This document shows, one piece after another, positions 2,399 to 35,925 of a DNA stretch of 64,000 nt. The notes below the pieces were generated by a model. It ran no database searches, was not told the origin of the DNA, and was given only the letters and a program-made list of their open reading frames with translations. The translations under genes and the position numbers were made by a program. The stretch comes from Streptococcus sp. oral taxon 431 (GTDB lineage Bacteria > Bacillota > Bacilli > Lactobacillales > Streptococcaceae), in contig NZ_CP014264.1 in NCBI RefSeq assembly GCF_001553685.1, forward strand, positions 1,868,001-1,932,000, read 5' to 3'. Position 1 is the stretch's first letter; every line of letters begins with the position of its first letter.

Positions 2399-4207
2399 TT
2401 ATTCTACCGTTACTGACTTGGCAAGGTTACGTGGCTTGTCCACATCAAGTCCACGGTGTAGAGTTGCAAAGTAAGCGACCAATTGTGTTGGTACGACCAT
2501 TGAGATTGGTGAGAGGTAAGGGTGTACGGTCGTAAGGACAATATCATCGGTATCTTTAGCAACATTTTCTTCTGCAATAGTAAGGACCTTAGCGCCACGT
2601 GCTGCCACTTCTTGGATATTTCCGCGAGTGTGGTTAGCAAGAACCGGATCTGACAAGAGGGCCAATACAGGCGTTCCTTCTTCAATCAAAGCAATAGTTC
2701 CGTGCTTGAGCTCTCCAGCCGCAAAACCTTCACATTGGATATAAGAAATCTCTTTGAGTTTGAGACTGGCTTCCATGGCTACATAGTAATCTTGACCACG
2801 TCCGATATAAAAGGCGTTACGTGTTGTTTCAAGAAGATCACGAACCTTGCTATCAATCAATTCTTTTTCTGAGAGAGTTGATTCGATAGACTGAGCCACG
2901 ATAGACAATTCGTGAACCAAATCGAAAGCTTTGGCTTTTTCATTGCCATTTGCTTCACCGACCGCTTTCGCAAGGAAGGCAAGAGCTGCGATTTGCGCAG
3001 TATATGCCTTGGTTGAAGCAACGGCAATTTCAGGACCTGCGTGAAGCAACATAGTATGGTTGGCTTCACGTGACAGAGTTGATCCTGGCACATTTGTCAC
3101 TGTCAAGCTTGGAATTCCCATTTCATTGGCCTTGACCAAAACCTGACGGCTATCAGCTGTTTCACCAGATTGGCTGATAAAGATGAAGAGTGGTTTCTTG
3201 CTGAGTAGTGGCATACCGTAGCCCCACTCAGATGAGATACCAAGTTCAACTGGCGTATCTGTCAATTCTTCCAACATTTTCTTAGAAGCAAATCCTGCGT
3301 GGTAAGAAGTCCCAGCTGCTAGAATGTAGATGCGGTCTGAGTCTTGAACAGCCTTGATGATAGCAGGGTCCACCACTACTTGACCAGCCTCATCTGTATA
3401 GGCTTGGATCAACTTACGCATCACTGTTGGTTGCTCATCGATTTCTTTAAGCATGTAGTAAGGGTAAGTTCCCTTACCGATATCTGACAAGTCGAGCTCT
3501 GCAGTGTAGCTAGCACGCTCACGACTGTTGCCATCATAGTCTTGCACTTCAACGCCATCTGCCGTCACAATCACCAACTCTTGGTCATGGATCTCCATGT
3601 ATTGGTTAGTTTCACGAATCATAGCCATAGCATCTGAGCAGACCATGTTGTAACCATCTCCAAGACCAATCAAAAGTGGTGATTTATTCTTAGCTACATA
3701 GATGACTTCAGGATCTTGTGAGTCAACCAAGGCAAAGGCATAAGAACCACGGATAATGTGAAGAGCTTTTTTGAAGGCTTCAAGTACTGACATGCCGTCT
3801 TCTTCAACAAATTTTCCAATCAAGTGTACAGCGATTTCTGTATCTGTTTGTCCCTTGAAGTGGTGACCTGCAAGGTAGTCTTCCTTGATTTCAAGGTAGT
3901 TCTCAATCACCCCATTGTGGACCAATACAAAACGTCCTGTCTCAGAGCGATGTGGGTGAGCATTGTCTTCTGTTGGTTTACCGTGAGTGGCCCAACGAGT
4001 ATGTCCAATACCAGTTGTCCCCTCAACGCCAGCAGTTTTAGCAGACAATTCTGCAATACGACCAACAGCCTTCACCAAATGGTTTTCAGCACCACCTAGG
4101 ACAAAAATTCCCGCAGAATCATAACCACGGTATTCGAGCTTTTCAAGCCCTTGAATCAAAATATCAGTTGCATTTGTGTTTCCAACAACACCAACAATTC
4201 CACACAT
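2399..4207 (-). CDS. glmS: Glutamine--fructose-6-phosphate aminotransferase (isomerizing)
   Basis: GlmS converts fructose-6-phosphate and glutamine to glucosamine-6-phosphate, the first committed step towards UDP-GlcNAc for peptidoglycan. The 602 residues show the whole architecture: N-terminal Cys2 nucleophile in MCGIVGVVG, the glutaminase HTRWATHG region near residue 75, two SIS sugar-phosphate isomerase domains (about 285-425 and 455-595, including SQSGETADS) and the conserved C-terminus [13 protein letters not shown]. It has its own strong promoter bracketed by two GntR-type palindromes, which fits the known control of glmS by NagR in streptococci. The gene stands alone between BOX elements. 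Confidence 0.98.
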
Positions 4208-4287: not shown

Positions 4288-4316
4288 AGTATATACTTGT
4301 TTCTTTTACTTGTCAA
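4288..4316 (-). promoter_or_regulatory. glmS sigma-70 promoter
   Basis: On the minus strand a perfect TTGACA is separated by 17 bases from TATACT. It is flanked on both sides by GntR-type palindromes. Confidence 0.85.
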
Positions 4317-4324
4317 GAATAAAA

Positions 4325-4340
4325 ATTGGTATAGCGTGAT
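4325..4340 (-). promoter_or_regulatory. NagR/GntR-type operator upstream of the glmS -35 box
   Basis: ATTGGTATAGCGTGAT shares its left half ATTGGTATAG with the operator at 4246. The two sites are 79 bases apart centre to centre and bracket the promoter. Confidence 0.55.
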
Positions 4341-4382
4341 TCTGCCCATTCTATCTACTAAAAATCTATCATATTTCGCCTA

Positions 4383-4533
4383 ATACTCAATGAAAATCAA
4401 AGAGCAAACTAGAAAGCTAGCCGCAGGTTGCTCAAAGCACTGCTTTGAGGTTGTAGATAAAACTGACGAAGTCAGTAACCACACATACGGCAAGGCGAAG
4501 CTGACGTGGTTTGAAGAGATTTTTGAAGAGTAT
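4383..4533 (-). repeat. BOX element with one boxB unit
   Basis: boxA is at the right, a single boxB (GCTCAAAGCACTGCTTTGAG core) in the middle and boxC at the left. It has the same orientation as the element at 1899, so glmS is enclosed by two BOX copies. Confidence 0.93.
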
Positions 4534-4545
4534 AAAGCAAGTATT

Positions 4546-4568
4546 TAAAAAGGGCTCTACTGCCCTTA
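4546..4568 (-). terminator. Terminator of the first small peptide gene
   Basis: On the minus strand AAGGGC/GCCCTT forms a stem with a six-base loop followed by a T run, eight bases after the stop codon of the 25-codon ORF. Confidence 0.75.
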
Positions 4569-4575
4569 ATAACTA

Positions 4576-4653
4576 CTATTTTGTAGCAACCTTTTCTGCT
4601 TCCACTACTTCTTGAAAGGTTTTTTGATAATTTACTTTAATCGTCATTGTCAT
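4576..4653 (-). CDS. Small peptide of 25 residues, first of a paralogous pair
   Basis: This short ORF (begins MTMTIKVNYQKTFQ, then EVVEAEKVATK) is not a family I recognise. Evidence that it is a gene: a GAGGA Shine-Dalgarno seven bases before ATG, its own -10 box and terminator, and a paralogue at 4954-5025 whose first 14 residues are identical while the DNA differs at four positions, all synonymous. That is the pattern of selection on the peptide. It has no signal peptide or membrane segment; it is polar and probably stays in the cytoplasm unless exported by a dedicated system. Confidence 0.7.
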   Translation of the reverse strand: MTMTIKVNYQKTFQEVVEAEKVATK

Positions 4654-4684
4654 GTGAGAGTCCTCGTTTCTTTTTGATGAACCC

Positions 4685-4728
4685 AGTATAAAATCTCTTC
4701 CTAAAACATAGCTTACATTTTCCTTAGA
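4685..4728 (-). promoter_or_regulatory. Promoter of small peptide gene 1 with three 11-bp-spaced hexamers
   Basis: On the minus strand TCTAAG, TGTAAG and TTTTAG occur at exact 11-base steps (4723-4728, 4712-4717, 4701-4706) and are followed after 10 bases by TATACT (4685-4690). Helical-phase hexamer repeats replacing a -35 box are typical of OmpR-type response regulators; the hexamers resemble CiaR sites (TTTAAG-N5-TTTAAG), but the assignment is an inference. Confidence 0.55.
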
Positions 4729-4750
4729 AAAAACTAAAAGTAACTTCTGA

Positions 4751-4818
4751 CTCAACGAAAACGAAAGAGCAAACTAGAAAGCTAGTCACAGGTTTCTCAA
4801 AGCACTGCTTTTAGATTG
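4751..4818 (-). repeat. Degenerate BOX fragment (boxC plus part of boxB)
   Basis: CTCAACGAAAACGAAAGAGCAAACTAGAAAGCTAG... followed by TCAAAGCACTGCTTTTAGATTG matches the boxC end and boxB start of the element at 4383 with several substitutions. No intact boxA is left. Confidence 0.75.
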
Positions 4819-4924
4819 CCTGTTAAGACTAAGGTGTTGTTTGAAGTAATGTTGAAGTTTATACATTCAGTAAATCAAATGAACATAATCACTTTTCTAA
4901 ATCCCTTACCTGAGAATCCCATAC

Positions 4925-4952
4925 AAAAAGAGCGTTCGTTACCGCTCTTTTA
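4925..4952 (-). terminator. Terminator of the second small peptide gene
   Basis: On the minus strand AAAAGAGCG/CGCTCTTTTT forms a perfect stem directly after the stop codon at 4954. Confidence 0.85.
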
Positions 4953-4953
4953 C

Positions 4954-5025
4954 TTAGTATTTATGAGAAGGTGTTTGTTCCTGTTGAAACGTTTTTTGGT
5001 AATTTACTTTAATTGTCATCGTCAT
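4954..5025 (-). CDS. Small peptide of 23 residues, second of a paralogous pair
   Basis: The ORF reads MTMTIKVNYQKTFQ, then QEQTPSHKY and stop. The N-terminal 14 residues are identical to those of the ORF at 4576-4653; only the C-terminal 9-11 residues differ. The leader from the -10 region to the ATG, including the GAGGA ribosome binding site, is almost identical in both. It lies just downstream of recG, but it has its own promoter and terminator. No function can be assigned; a regulatory or signalling peptide with a variable C-terminus is one possibility, a dual-function small RNA another. Confidence 0.7.
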   Translation of the reverse strand: MTMTIKVNYQKTFQQEQTPSHKY

Positions 5026-5056
5026 GTGAGAGTCCTCGTTTCTTTTTGATGACCCT

Positions 5057-5100
5057 AGTATAGACAATAACCCTAAAAGCAAACTTAAGATTTTCTTAGA
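5057..5100 (-). promoter_or_regulatory. Promoter of small peptide gene 2 with three 11-bp-spaced hexamers
   Basis: On the minus strand TCTAAG (5095-5100), CTTAAG (5084-5089) and TTTTAG (5073-5078) are spaced by 11 bases and followed after 10 bases by TATACT (5057-5062). The geometry is identical to the promoter at 4685-4728. Confidence 0.6.
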
Positions 5101-5106
5101 GAAAGC

Positions 5107-7122
5107 TTAATCTAAATGTTCTTTCTTTTCTAGATTTAGGGCAATCATATGCCACTCTGGGTCCTCCTGCCAGTTAGAAAGGGAGCTGATATAACCAGCT
5201 ACCTTACGCGCTTCCTCAAGAATAGGAAAATCTTCGATAATATCAGCCACTTGAAACTCTGGTAGACCTGACTGTCTGGTTCCAAAAATCTCACCAGAGC
5301 CACGCATTTTCAAATCTTCTTCTGCAAGGACAAATCCATTGGTCGTTTCCGTCATGATGCGCATGCGATCCTTTCCAGAATCAGTTTTGGGATTGGCCAC
5401 AAGTACCGCATAGGACTGCTTGTCTCCCCGACCGACACGACCTCTGAGCTGATGAAGCTGACTAAGTCCGAAACGGTCAGCATCCATGATAATCATGACT
5501 GTCGCATTTGGCACATTGACCCCGACCTCGATAACCGTTGTCGAAACCAGAATATCTGTATTTCTCTCTTTGAAATCCTGCATAATCTGGTCTTTTTCAT
5601 CACTCTTCATCTTACCGTGTAAGAGAGCAACTTTTGCTTTTTCTGCAAAATGAGCCGTCAATTCTTCCGATAAAGCAATAGCATTTTTAAGATCCAGGGC
5701 TTCTGATTCTTCAATCAAGGGAGAAATAACATAGGCTTGTGAACCTTTCTGAATCTCACCCTCCAACCAAGTCAAGACCTGGGGCAACTGTTCATGTTTA
5801 ATCCAGCGTGTTACGATCGGTTTTCGTCCCGCTGGCATCTGGTCAATAATGGAAACATCCATATCTCCAAAAGCTGTGATGGCTAAGGTCCGTGGAATCG
5901 GAGTTGCCGTCATCATAAGGACATCTGGATTTTCTCCTTTTTCCCGTAAAATACGCCTTTGTCCCACACCAAATCGGTGTTGTTCATCGATGATAATCAA
6001 ACCAAGTCGAGCGTATTCCACCCCATCCTGTATAAGGGCATGGGTACCGACGATCACATCAACCTCGCCCTTAGCAATCGTTTCCAAAACCGTGCGTTTT
6101 TCTGCAGCTTTTAGTGAACCTGTTAGGAGGGCTAGTTTCAAATCTGGAAAGAGACTTTCTAGACTTTCAAAATGCTGCTCTGCAAGGATCTCTGTCGGAA
6201 CCATTAGAGCTGCCTGATAACCAGCCGTTACAGCCGCGTACATCGCTAGACCCGCAACCACTGTCTTCCCACTACCGACATCCCCTTGTAAGAGTCGATT
6301 CATGTGTTGGTCCGACTTCATATCTGTTAGAATTTCTTGTAGGCTTTTTTCTTGGGCTTGGGTTAAGGCAAAAGGCAATTTCTCTTTAACGGCAGTTAGT
6401 TTTTCCTGGGACCAATTCAGGACCAATCCACTTCCGTGAATCTTATTTTCAGATTTGAGGGTCTGTAACTGCATTTGGAAATAAAAGAGCTCCTCAAACT
6501 TAATTCGACGAAGGGCCTGTTTGTATTCTGCTAAATCCTTAGGAAAATGCATGGCACGAACAGCCTGACAGCGAGACATGAGTTTGTATTTATCGAGCAA
6601 GGACTGAGGGATATTTTCCTCTATCAAGAGATCTAGACCCTGGTCAAAGGCGGTTTTAATGACTTTAACAAGGCCTGCTTGACTAACTCCTTGTGCGAGA
6701 CGATAGACAGGTTGGAGATCATCCTCCACTTGGGCTAAAACCTTCATACCTGTGAGACTAGCTTTAGCACGATCCCACTTTCCAAAGACAGCCAAGGTTG
6801 CTCCTAGTTCAATCTTGTCAGCCAGGTAGGGTTGGTTAAAGAAGTTAACCGCAAACACAACTTCTCCCTGTTTGAGACTAAAACGTAGGCGATTACGCTT
6901 AAATCCATAATACTGAACACTAGCAGGAGTCACGACTTGACCAGATAGGACAGCCTTTTCACCATCTTCTAGTTCTAGCACCTGCTTGGTCTTAAAATCT
7001 TCATAACGGAAAGGAAAGTAGAGCAAGAGGTCTTGCAGATTTTCAATTCCTAGTTTGGCATATTTCTCTGCTGATTTAGGTCCCACGCCTGGCAAGACAT
7101 GCAAGGGTTGGTGTAAATTCAT
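5107..7122 (-). CDS. recG: ATP-dependent DNA helicase RecG
   Basis: RecG remodels stalled forks and branch-migrates Holliday junctions. The 671 residues are the normal length. An N-terminal wedge/OB region (about 1-150) precedes an SF2 helicase core with Walker A GDVGSGKT at 280-287, a DEQH motif II (DEQHRFGVGQRR), TATPIPRTL motif III and QLRGRVGRGD motif VI; the TRQSGLPEF region is typical of the RecG C-terminus. The stop is just before the promoter of the small peptide gene. It follows alr by 24 bases on the same strand, so the run alr-recG is probably cotranscribed from upstream, as in pneumococcus. Confidence 0.97.
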   Translation of the reverse strand: MNLHQPLHVLPGVGPKSAEKYAKLGIENLQDLLLYFPFRYEDFKTKQVLELEDGEKAVLSGQVVTPASVQYYGFKRNRLRFSLKQGEVVFAVNFFNQPYLADKIELGATLAVFGKWDRAKASLTGMKVLAQVEDDLQPVYRLAQGVSQAGLVKVIKTAFDQGLDLLIEENIPQSLLDKYKLMSRCQAVRAMHFPKDLAEYKQALRRIKFEELFYFQMQLQTLKSENKIHGSGLVLNWSQEKLTAVKEKLPFALTQAQEKSLQEILTDMKSDQHMNRLLQGDVGSGKTVVAGLAMYAAVTAGYQAALMVPTEILAEQHFESLESLFPDLKLALLTGSLKAAEKRTVLETIAKGEVDVIVGTHALIQDGVEYARLGLIIIDEQHRFGVGQRRILREKGENPDVLMMTATPIPRTLAITAFGDMDVSIIDQMPAGRKPIVTRWIKHEQLPQVLTWLEGEIQKGSQAYVISPLIEESEALDLKNAIALSEELTAHFAEKAKVALLHGKMKSDEKDQIMQDFKERNTDILVSTTVIEVGVNVPNATVMIIMDADRFGLSQLHQLRGRVGRGDKQSYAVLVANPKTDSGKDRMRIMTETTNGFVLAEEDLKMRGSGEIFGTRQSGLPEFQVADIIEDFPILEEARKVAGYISSLSNWQEDPEWHMIALNLEKKEHLD

Positions 7123-8647: not shown

Positions 8648-9679
8648 TTATTTTGTTAAGGTAGTATAGATTTCTTCTACCAAGGCTACTGTGTTTTCCC
8701 ATCCTAGACATGGGTCTGTAATAGAACAACCAAAGATTTCTGGTTGATTTTGGCGACCATCTGCCAAGTAAGATTCAATCATGAAACCTCGAACTGTCTT
8801 CTTGATCTTTTCATTCCAGTCACGGTTGAGCAGAGCCTGACGAACAATTCGAACTTGCTCCATATATTGCTTGCCTGAATTATCATGGTTAGTATCAATC
8901 ATGATAAAGGGATTTTCAAGCCCCATAGACTCGTAACGGCCGATAGTATCTAAGAGAGTTTCATAGTAGAAGTTTGGTTCATTCTTCCCATATTCATTCA
9001 TAGCTCCACGAAGGATAACGTGGGCCAGGGGATTACCTGAAGTCTCAACTTCTTGTCCATGGTAAAGAAATATTTGCTTGTTTTGTGCAGCATAGATGGC
9101 ATTAAACATAACAGATAGATTTCCTGAGGTTGGATTTTTCATCCCCACTGGTGCATCAATCCCTGAAGCTACAAAACGGTGTTCTTGGTCTTCTACTGAA
9201 CGCGCACCCACGGCATGGTAGCTCACCAAGTCGTCAACTAAAACTAGATTGGATGGATAAAGCATTTCATCTGCTGTAGTCAATCCAGTTTCTGTAATCA
9301 CTCGATAATGAAGCTGACGTACAGCCTGCAAACCATTAATCAAACTTGGTGCTTTAGAAGTATCTGGCTGATGAACCAAACCCTTGTAGCCATCTCCATT
9401 GGTGCGTGGCTTGGCTGTGTACACACGCATGACCATGAAAATCTTATCCGCAACTTTCTTCTGCAAGTCTGCCAAACGGCGAGCATACTCAAGAACTGCT
9501 TCTTCATTGTCAGACGAACAAGGTCCAATGACCAACAAGATTCGGTCATCCTTTCCTGAAAGGATGTCTGCTAGTTCCTGGTCACGGCTTTCCTTATGTT
9601 GCAAGGCTTTTGCAGATAACTGTGTTTCCGCCTTAATCGCTTCAATATCGATTTCTTGACCTTTTTCAATAAATGCCAT
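8648..9679 (-). CDS. aroG: 3-deoxy-7-phosphoheptulonate synthase (DAHP synthase), second tandem copy
   Basis: This enzyme condenses phosphoenolpyruvate and erythrose-4-phosphate, the first step of the shikimate pathway. At 343 residues it is a class I (AroF/G/H-type) enzyme; visible blocks are LLVIGPCSSDN, MRVYTAKPRT, GVH-like GYKGLVHQPD, GARSVEDQEHR and DTNHDNSGKQ. It starts one base after the stop of the neighbouring paralogue, with AGGAGAATAAT as ribosome binding site inside that gene's end. The two copies are roughly three-quarters identical and may differ in feedback inhibition. Which of the two should be called aroF or aroG is uncertain. Confidence 0.93.
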   Translation of the reverse strand: MAFIEKGQEIDIEAIKAETQLSAKALQHKESRDQELADILSGKDDRILLVIGPCSSDNEEAVLEYARRLADLQKKVADKIFMVMRVYTAKPRTNGDGYKGLVHQPDTSKAPSLINGLQAVRQLHYRVITETGLTTADEMLYPSNLVLVDDLVSYHAVGARSVEDQEHRFVASGIDAPVGMKNPTSGNLSVMFNAIYAAQNKQIFLYHGQEVETSGNPLAHVILRGAMNEYGKNEPNFYYETLLDTIGRYESMGLENPFIMIDTNHDNSGKQYMEQVRIVRQALLNRDWNEKIKKTVRGFMIESYLADGRQNQPEIFGCSITDPCLGWENTVALVEEIYTTLTK

Positions 9680-9680
9680 A

Positions 9681-10712
9681 TTATTCTCCTAGTCTTTGGT
9701 AGATTTCGCGCACAAGAGCCTCAGTATTTTCCCATCCTAAACATGGATCGGTGATAGATTTCCCAAAGACCTCTGGTTCATTTTGACGACCGTCTTCTAG
9801 ATAAGACTCAATCATGAAACCACGAACATATTTTTTAATCTTTTCATTCCAATCGCGGTTAATCAAGGTCTGACGAACGATGCGAATCTGATCCATATAC
9901 TGCTTGCCTGAGTTATCATGGTTGGTATCAATGATGATAAATGGATTTTCAAGGCCCATCTTTTCATACTGGGCAATGGTATCCATCAAATTATCATAGT
10001 AGTAGTTAGGAATATTTTTTCCGTATTCGTTAAGGGCACCACGGAGAATGGCATGGGATAAAGGATTTCCAGTAGTTTCGACTTCTTTCCCTAGGAAAAG
10101 GAAACTCTGCTTGTTTTGCGCTGCATAAATACCGTTGAACATGACATTGAGATTTCCTGAGGTTGGATTTTTAAAACCTGTCGCAAAATCTGCTCCACTA
10201 GCTACAAAACGGTGTTGCTGGTCTTCAACCGAACGAGCTCCAACTGCCATATAAGAAATCAAATCATCTACCAAAGGAAGGTTCTCTGGGTACAACATCT
10301 CATCTGCTGTTGTCATTCCTGTTTCATAAATAACACGGTAATGCAGGTGACGAACCGCCTTGATCCCATTGATGAGACTAGGTGCTTCTTTAGCATTTGG
10401 TTGGTGAATCAAGCCCTTATAACCATCACCATTAGTACGTGGTTTAGCAGTGTAGACGCGCATCACCATAAAGACGCGATTTTTGACTTCTTCTTGCAAT
10501 TTTGCCAAACGCTTGGCATACTCAAGAACTGCTTCTTCATTGTCAGACGAACACGGACCAATCACCAACAAAATTCGTTGATCTTCACCACGAATAATCG
10601 CTTCAAGTTCTTGATCGCGTTGTTGTTTATTGGCAAGTGCTTGTCCTTCTAATTTAGACAAACTACGAACTTCTTCAATATTAATTTTAGGGCTTTTGGC
10701 TGTAAATACCAT
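9681..10712 (-). CDS. aroF: 3-deoxy-7-phosphoheptulonate synthase (DAHP synthase), first tandem copy
   Basis: This is the paralogue of the adjacent gene, also 343 residues and class I, with LLVIGPCSSDN, VMRVYTAKPRT, GYKGLIHQPN, GARSVEDQQHR and DTNHDNSGKQ. The start at 10712 has a GGAGG box. It lies directly downstream of secA, separated by an 81-base spacer that contains a long imperfect hairpin. The order secA, two DAHP synthases, acpS, alr, recG is the conserved pneumococcal arrangement. The duplication is ancient, because the pair differs throughout. Confidence 0.93.
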   Translation of the reverse strand: MVFTAKSPKINIEEVRSLSKLEGQALANKQQRDQELEAIIRGEDQRILLVIGPCSSDNEEAVLEYAKRLAKLQEEVKNRVFMVMRVYTAKPRTNGDGYKGLIHQPNAKEAPSLINGIKAVRHLHYRVIYETGMTTADEMLYPENLPLVDDLISYMAVGARSVEDQQHRFVASGADFATGFKNPTSGNLNVMFNGIYAAQNKQSFLFLGKEVETTGNPLSHAILRGALNEYGKNIPNYYYDNLMDTIAQYEKMGLENPFIIIDTNHDNSGKQYMDQIRIVRQTLINRDWNEKIKKYVRGFMIESYLEDGRQNEPEVFGKSITDPCLGWENTEALVREIYQRLGE

Positions 10713-35816: not shown

Positions 35817-35841
35817 GATTTCTCCTATATGAATATCGTTT

Positions 35842-35914
35842 TTGTTTACAGGGCGGATGTTCCGGTCCGCAAGTTATTTGAAAGGTTCCGGGGCCTTACA
35901 AATGGGGTAAACAA
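35842..35914 (-). promoter_or_regulatory. L13-type leader RNA
   Basis: On the minus strand TTGTTTAC (35907-35914) pairs with GTAAACAA (35842-35849), enclosing a GCGGA/TCCGC hairpin and other GC-rich segments. Position and size fit the ribosomal leader that mediates L13 autoregulation in Firmicutes. Confidence 0.7.
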
Positions 35915-35925
35915 TACCGTCTACT

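Follow-up and report, generated by a model that had tools for sequence, protein, structure and literature searches.

Two tandem minus-strand transcription units occupy the interval between recG and glmS in the window (the whole stretch of DNA analyzed, 64,000 nt of Streptococcus sp. oral taxon 431), and they are probably CiaR-activated micropeptide genes with a peptide function, related to the pneumococcal srf-21/rio82 locus. Judged from its sequence, each unit is very likely a translated peptide gene of the CiaR type and a relative of rio82. The pneumococcal member of the family is already described, others having shown, in pneumococcus only, that it is transcribed, is controlled by CiaR and has ribosomes at its start codon; what is new here is the spread of the family, the peptide plan, the coding test and the units in which the ORF is joined to a csRNA core.

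Layout of the twin units

Each unit consists of a promoter array, a Shine-Dalgarno sequence, an ORF of 25 or 23 codons and a terminator (Table 1); direct reading and recomputation confirmed this part of the original prediction. The predicted likeness of the two copies also held, since their 14-codon heads (42 nt) differ at four bases, all third positions and all synonymous, and their leaders differ at 2 of 37 bases, counted from TATACT through the last base ahead of ATG. Both leaders contain the ribosome site GAGGA and would be 25 nt long if the start matches that in strain D39V, from whose mapped srf-21 start the start of unit 1 was derived. A hairpin followed by a T run closes both transcripts, and the gap between ORF and terminator is short in both. 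A simple terminator scan reported the unit 1 hairpin alone and assigned it to the (+) strand, a simple sigma-70 scan detected neither unit promoter, and an Rfam search of positions 4300–5200 returned cow-rumen-4 alone (E = 0.92, under the gathering score).

Table 1. Coordinates of the twin units and their neighbors in the window
Feature	Position	Strand	Description
glmS	2399..4207	(−)	downstream neighbor in the window; name from reading of the ORF
Unit 2 transcript	4547..4678	(−)	132 nt; start inferred by homology
Unit 2 terminator hairpin	4547..4567	(−)	RNA fold
ORF 2	4576..4653	(−)	25 codons, MTMTIKVNYQKTFQEVVEAEKVATK; tail type B
Unit 2 promoter	4685..4739	(−)	TTTTAG (4739–4734), TCTAAG (4728–4723), TGTAAG (4717–4712), TTTTAG (4706–4701), N10, TATACT (4690–4685)
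Unit 1 transcript	4925..5050	(−)	126 nt; end is the last T of the terminator
Unit 1 terminator hairpin	4925..4951	(−)	RNA fold
ORF 1	4954..5025	(−)	23 codons, MTMTIKVNYQKTFQQEQTPSHKY; tail type A
Unit 1 promoter	5057..5111	(−)	ATTAAG (5111–5106), TCTAAG (5100–5095), CTTAAG (5089–5084), TTTTAG (5078–5073), N10, TATACT (5062–5057)
recG	5107..7122	(−)	upstream neighbor; gene name from reading and linkage

Repeats, which we take to be BOX-like elements, flank the twin units and also occur near 2 kb (positions 1906–2181, 4380–4540 and 4740–4815), one copy being internally repeated. Elsewhere in the window, two adjacent tandem ORFs of 343 residues resemble DAHP synthase (8648–10712; name from reading), and positions 35839–35918 on the (−) strand match the Rfam L13 leader. 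An AGAGTC/GACTCT inverted repeat in the leader was dropped as a candidate element; it lies mostly 5′ of the mapped start and is unconserved in relatives, as read from the alignment.

Promoter arrays carry CiaR-type sites

Three hexamers at 11-bp steps had been predicted for each promoter; the spacing proved right, and the count came to four per promoter, with N10 before TATACT. In unit 1, the recG stop codon and the outermost hexamer overlap. Searched for as four hexamers followed by TATA(A/C)T, the array matched the window at these two promoters alone and matched none of 100 Markov-1 resamples. The same array is visible in alignments of 26 and 32 units; in the latter, the hexamers hold 1.59, 1.30, 1.44 and 1.61 bits per column and the stretches behind them 1.37, 0.72, 0.49 and 0.44, so that the contrast between hexamer and spacer is weak for the outermost pair. 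One distant member (L056) has one 11-bp step fewer, and in six loci (L028, L029, L031, L035–L037) a repeat-like sequence is inserted between the two outer boxes, which may therefore be dispensable there.

By their pattern, these are CiaR-type sites. In both units, the boxes stand 10 bp before the −10 element and show three mismatches each to the full CiaR consensus. In the same genome, the plain CiaR pattern (up to three mismatches) also marks csRNAs, htrA, an ispD/tarI-like promoter and ciaR (names from reading), with 21 matches versus 9 for the reversed pattern. The recognition helix of the CiaR encoded there (L088), VVEVYVSKVRKKL, is identical to the published helix (given in PMC3091779). 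The pattern led to six csRNA-like genes, and two near-identical csRNA genes lie ~2 kb apart (G000:C1 299164 and 301144; L080, L081). Four matches to a profile of the family (L187, L193, L195, L196; profile R2, see below) have hexamer arrays, a TAAACT-type −10 and a similar leader, followed by lipoprotein-like genes; they possibly belong to another OmpR-type regulon. The prediction that these are translated peptide genes, duplicated and controlled by a response regulator, thus draws support from the CiaR-type boxes and from CiaR control published for pneumococcus (in the relevant passage of PMC6560143).

The pneumococcal relative srf-21/rio82

The following statements come from excerpts of the cited papers. 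In S. pneumoniae D39V, srf-21 (SPV_2378) is annotated as an ncRNA at 1528520–1528643 on the minus strand (PMC6212727), and its start lies 25 nt before the ATG of rio82 (PMC6212727, PMC9426450). The sORF rio82, MTVTIKVNYQTTFQKKEAKN, lies within srf-21 between spv_1506 and spv_1507 of D39; it was found by ribosome profiling, with signal at the start codon, and Table 1 of that paper assigns it no secretion signal (PMC9426450). Ten sORFs including rio82 were fused to sfGFP and five gave strong bands, which five not being specified in the excerpt (PMC9426450). srf-21 is a member of the CiaR regulon with a CiaR site and a terminator before axe1, which has its own start (PMC6560143), and it responds to red blood cells like other CiaR RNAs (PMC9812572). 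The same locus, as Spd_sr83, is listed with 385 pneumococcal strains (PMC12323649); its RNA was detected on a Northern blot, is raised without RNase Y and, by sequencing, is 3.9-fold lower without PNPase (PMC8546594). One paper equates rio82 with shp1518 (PMC11701578), probably a slip, as rio83 and rio84 are the sORFs placed between spv_1517 and spv_1518 (PMC9426450).

The claim that no such family had been described thus falls, the pneumococcal counterpart having been published as rio82 within srf-21 (PMC9426450). In the excerpts of open-licence PMC literature searched, no function is stated for srf-21, rio82 or Spd_sr83; the family head strings occurred in PMC9426450 alone, and the string MTMTIKVNYQK in none. 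Exact copies of the 63-nt rio82 ORF are present in eight of the loci that we fetched, including L034 and L225 (G039), where it lies directly 3′ of recG. Both window ORFs fit the srf-21/rio82 head T-I-K-V-(N/T)-Y-x-x-x-F behind the conserved leader.

Distribution of the family in Streptococcus

The peptides follow the plan I-x-V-x-Y-x-K-x-F-x9-Y-G. Among 31 hand-picked representatives, V and Y are present in all 31 and K in 27, and the head closes with F in 29 and with Y in 2. Eighteen of the 31 carry Y-G, with an F-to-Y spacing of 10 in 15 peptides and 9 in three, and five others end in Y. The charge is mostly positive, one of the 31 standing at −5.

A blastn search placed the unit in 53 of 147 Streptococcus genomes. 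Two profiles, R1 (from 26 units) and R2 (from 32 units), reached further: at E ≤ 1e-10, R2 matched the unit in 181 of 284 Streptococcus genomes, a number that is no proof of intact peptides, because an R2 match covers promoter, leader and head. Included in the 181 are G230, where the match opens a lipoprotein-like gene (L187), G002, G068 and G278, whose ORFs (L012, L016, L165) are broken, and genomes in which the ORF has diverged or has only three codons; when the ORFs of distant matches were read, most, not all, shared the peptide plan. A clade with a much longer leader (L189, L191, L194, L198) reads MTVKIKV..N.NFQKHPQDFKVYQ[ND]. Outside the genus, the best match in an order-wide draw of 148 genomes had an E-value of 8.8e-8. 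Profile R1 reached 1.5e-8 in a genome of another genus (G311), yet that locus (L162) opens no family ORF. A further R1 match from another genus (L164, E = 2e-6) encodes MKNTIKIKNIEYRFVKSGKIPALSSRASYGFQENKA behind four phased hexamers and is a possible relative outside Streptococcus.

Searches of Pfam, PHROGs and PDB with the peptide family gave best E-values of 0.13, 0.14 and 1.6, respectively, with one member or chain each, and NCBIfam gave none. A phage or plasmid origin was set aside after tblastn searches at E = 10 (ORF 2 against phages, ORF 1 against plasmids) returned no match, the short queries making these weak tests.

Some relatives join the ORF to a csRNA core

csRNAs carry sequences able to pair with start regions (as described in part of PMC3091779), and six csRNAs of the genome analyzed contain the core TTTTTCATAATAATCTCC. 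We scanned 56 hand-chosen representatives of the family, 54 of which yielded an ORF, for the strict core within 130 nt past the ORF stop. It was present in 14 of the 54 (L054, L131–L134; L138, L143, L145, L153; L155; L236, L239; L151, L240), 12 of which encode a family peptide, the ORFs of L151 and L240 lying outside the family. Two representatives (L184, L188) gave no ORF by our filter, though other readings show a family-like ORF in both; the sequence of L186 turns to N past its ORF, and for L246 and L249 the second unit was picked. Background cores, counted outside the units and one clear csRNA, amounted to seven sites per 240,640 bases, some of them resembling start regions read on the opposite strand, and therefore ~0.2 chance cores would be expected among the 54. 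The window itself holds two strict cores, against 0 to 2 in each of ten single-strand Markov resamples.

A core behind the ORF on the same transcript in several distant lineages looks like a dual peptide/antisense RNA, and the excess over chance favors reading the window units, too, as transcripts that encode a peptide and also act by base pairing. For the window, we consider this unlikely, since neither a strict nor a relaxed core lies within 130 nt of the unit 1 ORF, none was found in the unit 2 transcript by reading, and the core is absent from all eight representatives of tail types A, C and D (unit 1 included), the terminator following close behind the ORF. The two window units are better read as peptide genes. 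A role as csRNA sponge was likewise rejected: at least 22 of 33 start regions of the window pair as well as or better than the units with the six csRNAs of the same genome, and the unit leaders, if anything, pair poorly.

One clade (L246–L249) keeps the promoter, leader and start codon of the recG-linked unit (whose ATG lies at offset 1589 in the oriented locus) with an ORF of three codons, the csRNA core in four of four loci and a terminator at about +181; the promoter of L248, whose unit also has the core, contains TTTGAG. About 380 nt further, behind what reads as a two-box CiaR-like promoter, lies another ORF, for MKVAIKVCYPNTFKQAQKMEVTYGK or a close variant of it, following the plan MKV.IKV.YP.TFKQA.KMEVTYGK. 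At another locus of the same clade (L240–L242, L244), promoter and core are kept and the ORF has diverged. Both features are therefore joined in some lineages and separated in one, and the group of the window is peptide-only. These forms could descend from an ancient, genus-wide CiaR-controlled dual RNA beside recG, with a 5′ peptide of ~18–33 residues and a 3′ csRNA core, that later split into peptide-only units, RNA-only units with a separate peptide, and joint units, a history to which we give not quite an even chance. Published long csRNAs may be such units, for example csRNA8 of S. sanguinis, which has 177 nt (per the excerpted PMC3091779) and matches in size and motif only.

The reading frame is conserved and tail types recur

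The coding test used 86 units extracted from the loci, comprising 55 distinct closed ORFs; one L058 unit was left out because the start rule failed. By tail, 16 ORFs are of type A (ending PSPKY or PSHKY), 11 of type B (EVVEADKLATK), 15 of type C (KKEATK/KKEAKN, the rio82 type) and nine of type D (EKGASTY), and the four others are two ORFs with early stops (L012, L016) and two distant members (L054, L056). The head shows 36 distinct changes, of which 13 are synonymous versus 6.4 expected (P = 0.0002), and in its majority sequence both other frames contain a stop. For head and tail together, the synonymous test gave P < 0.0002 for type A, 0.0096 for B, 0.017 for C and 0.0014 for D; for the tail only, it was significant for type A alone (P = 0.008; B, 0.26; C, 0.20; D, 0.56). 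Within the V, Y and F codons, positions 1 and 2 vary less than position 3. The point on which the original prediction had staked itself, frame conservation in relatives, thus came out in its favor, with a synonymous excess, and the substitution pattern indicates that the ORF is kept by selection on the peptide.

These data bear on the alternative of a non-coding regulator of the srf-21 type, in which the ORF would be incidental or shape RNA stability only. srf-21 is annotated as an ncRNA in D39 (in the parts consulted of PMC6560143 and PMC6212727), and an RNA role is favored where the L246–L249 clade keeps the RNA with its 3-codon ORF and core; even there, however, a second, intact peptide unit follows. 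Against this reading stand the synonymous excess and conserved frame, the invariance of V and Y across diverged nucleotides, the scarcity of structure besides the terminator (z = −2.1 and −0.7) and the ribosome profiling signal at the rio82 start (from the accessible part of PMC9426450), and we regard it as improbable.

The original prediction of a constant head with unrelated, variable tails needs qualification. Between the two window copies, the tails are indeed unrelated, but they are not free: each type is stable and recurs in other genomes, and distant relatives often have Y-G nine or ten residues past the head F. Type B is of identical length in all 11 distinct sequences. ORF 1 terminates exactly at the Y position (F+10) and ORF 2 has A-T-K where several relatives read Y-G-K, so the tails are best read, we infer, as divergence from a Y-G tail. 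Early stops in at least three fetched loci (L012, L016, L165) mean that loss of the peptide is tolerated.

Synteny and duplication

In 16 of 20 fetched 6-kb loci, as in the window, recG lies directly upstream on the same strand. In L214, one 120-residue ORF separates recG from the peptide gene, two units (L209, L221) lie behind genes belonging to a single cluster (read as a CNNM-like transporter), and L219 is at another site. What follows the unit differs between species, in gene and even in strand.

Tandem pairs of full units, with ORFs confirmed, occur in at least 16 of 284 genomes, so duplication is not typical of the family. Among the matches listed, A+B pairs are found in 11 genomes (G000, G028, G081, G082, G087, G133, G204, G213, G233, G261, G275; in G133 a run of N separates the copies) and C+C pairs in G085, G144, G259, G260 and G264. 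Genomes with two copies at separate loci include G008, G027, G040 and G159, and the two units of G127 are on different contigs. Leader variants are shared within pairs, both copies reading AAATGAGG in L009 (G028) and AAACGAGG in L003, L005, L007 and L008, which hints at gene conversion between twins.

The second copy could be a drifting duplicate without a role of its own. The rarity of tandem pairs is in keeping with this, as is the single unit of G103 (L018), where an A-type promoter is joined to a B-type tail; copies can therefore be lost via recombination between the repeated heads. The constant length of the type B ORFs and the persistence of the A+B pair in at least 11 genomes argue otherwise, and we think it very improbable that copy 2 lacks a role. 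We find it hardly credible that the ORF is a leader peptide and attenuator acting on its downstream neighbor, which is axe1 in pneumococcus and glmS in the window. A terminator between ORF and next gene and a proposed read-through into axe1 could speak for this reading, which is rejected on the synteny of the 20 loci, where downstream gene and strand vary while recG upstream is usually constant, as well as on the separate start site of axe1 (both axe1 statements from an excerpt of PMC6560143).

Discussion

The preferred reading, two tandem peptide genes under CiaR, suggests the following course of events. Under envelope or competence stress, phosphorylated CiaR would fill the phased boxes, and the short mRNA would be translated into a soluble, mostly cationic cytosolic peptide. 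The conserved V, Y, K and F alternate (V, +2, +4, +6) and would thus share one face in an extended strand; a conserved protein or RNA may be the partner on which the peptide docks as an edge strand, the C-terminal aromatic residue serving as a second anchor. This aromatic is still the last residue of copy 1 and has been replaced in copy 2, which probably gives the copies different partners or different strength. If the ancestral gene carried the csRNA antisense core, the window copies would be its peptide-only descendants. The docking step, drawn from the residue alternation, the near-fixed F-to-Y distance, the mostly positive charge and the lack of a rio82 secretion signal, is tentative and is the weakest link of the explanation.

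CiaRH is a core stress system of streptococci, and HtrA and the csRNAs are usually held responsible for its effects. The peptide family described here, conserved through much of the genus behind a CiaR-type promoter of four boxes, would supply this system with a missing effector; we found only the pneumococcal form of the peptide in print. The joint units offer a natural series for the forming or splitting of a dual-function RNA, and, if the history proposed above is true, some long csRNAs published as non-coding may encode a family peptide; re-reading of csRNAs filed as non-coding is therefore suggested.

Among known systems, the csRNAs (Ccn RNAs), described in Marx 2010 and later work, share with the window units a CiaR-type promoter with its box 10 bp before the −10 element, an intergenic location and a terminator of their own, at lengths of 51–202 nt. 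They differ in having an anti-Shine-Dalgarno/anti-AUG core and, by reading of the same genome, two boxes, whereas the window units are without such a core and contain an ORF with synonymous excess that appears to be under selection. L085, the CiaR promoter before an ispD/tarI-like gene in the same genome, likewise has 11-bp steps, with three perfect TTTAAG boxes, but has fewer boxes than the window units and a protein gene downstream.

SgrS/SgrT are dual-function small RNAs. Distant relatives of the window units resemble them in that a single predicted RNA holds both a short ORF and a csRNA core, a combination present by sequence in 12 of the 54 representatives; the regulator, hosts and sequences are different, and the window copies have the ORF alone.

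The pneumococcal srf-21/rio82 shares with the window units the position directly behind recG, a transcript of ~125 nt, the same leader and the head TIKVNYQ, CiaR control being published in pneumococcus and marked in the window by CiaR-type boxes. There, a single 20-residue sORF with tail type C is annotated as ncRNA or as an uncharacterized sORF; in the window, the copies number two and carry tails A and B, and the gene downstream is glmS instead of axe1.
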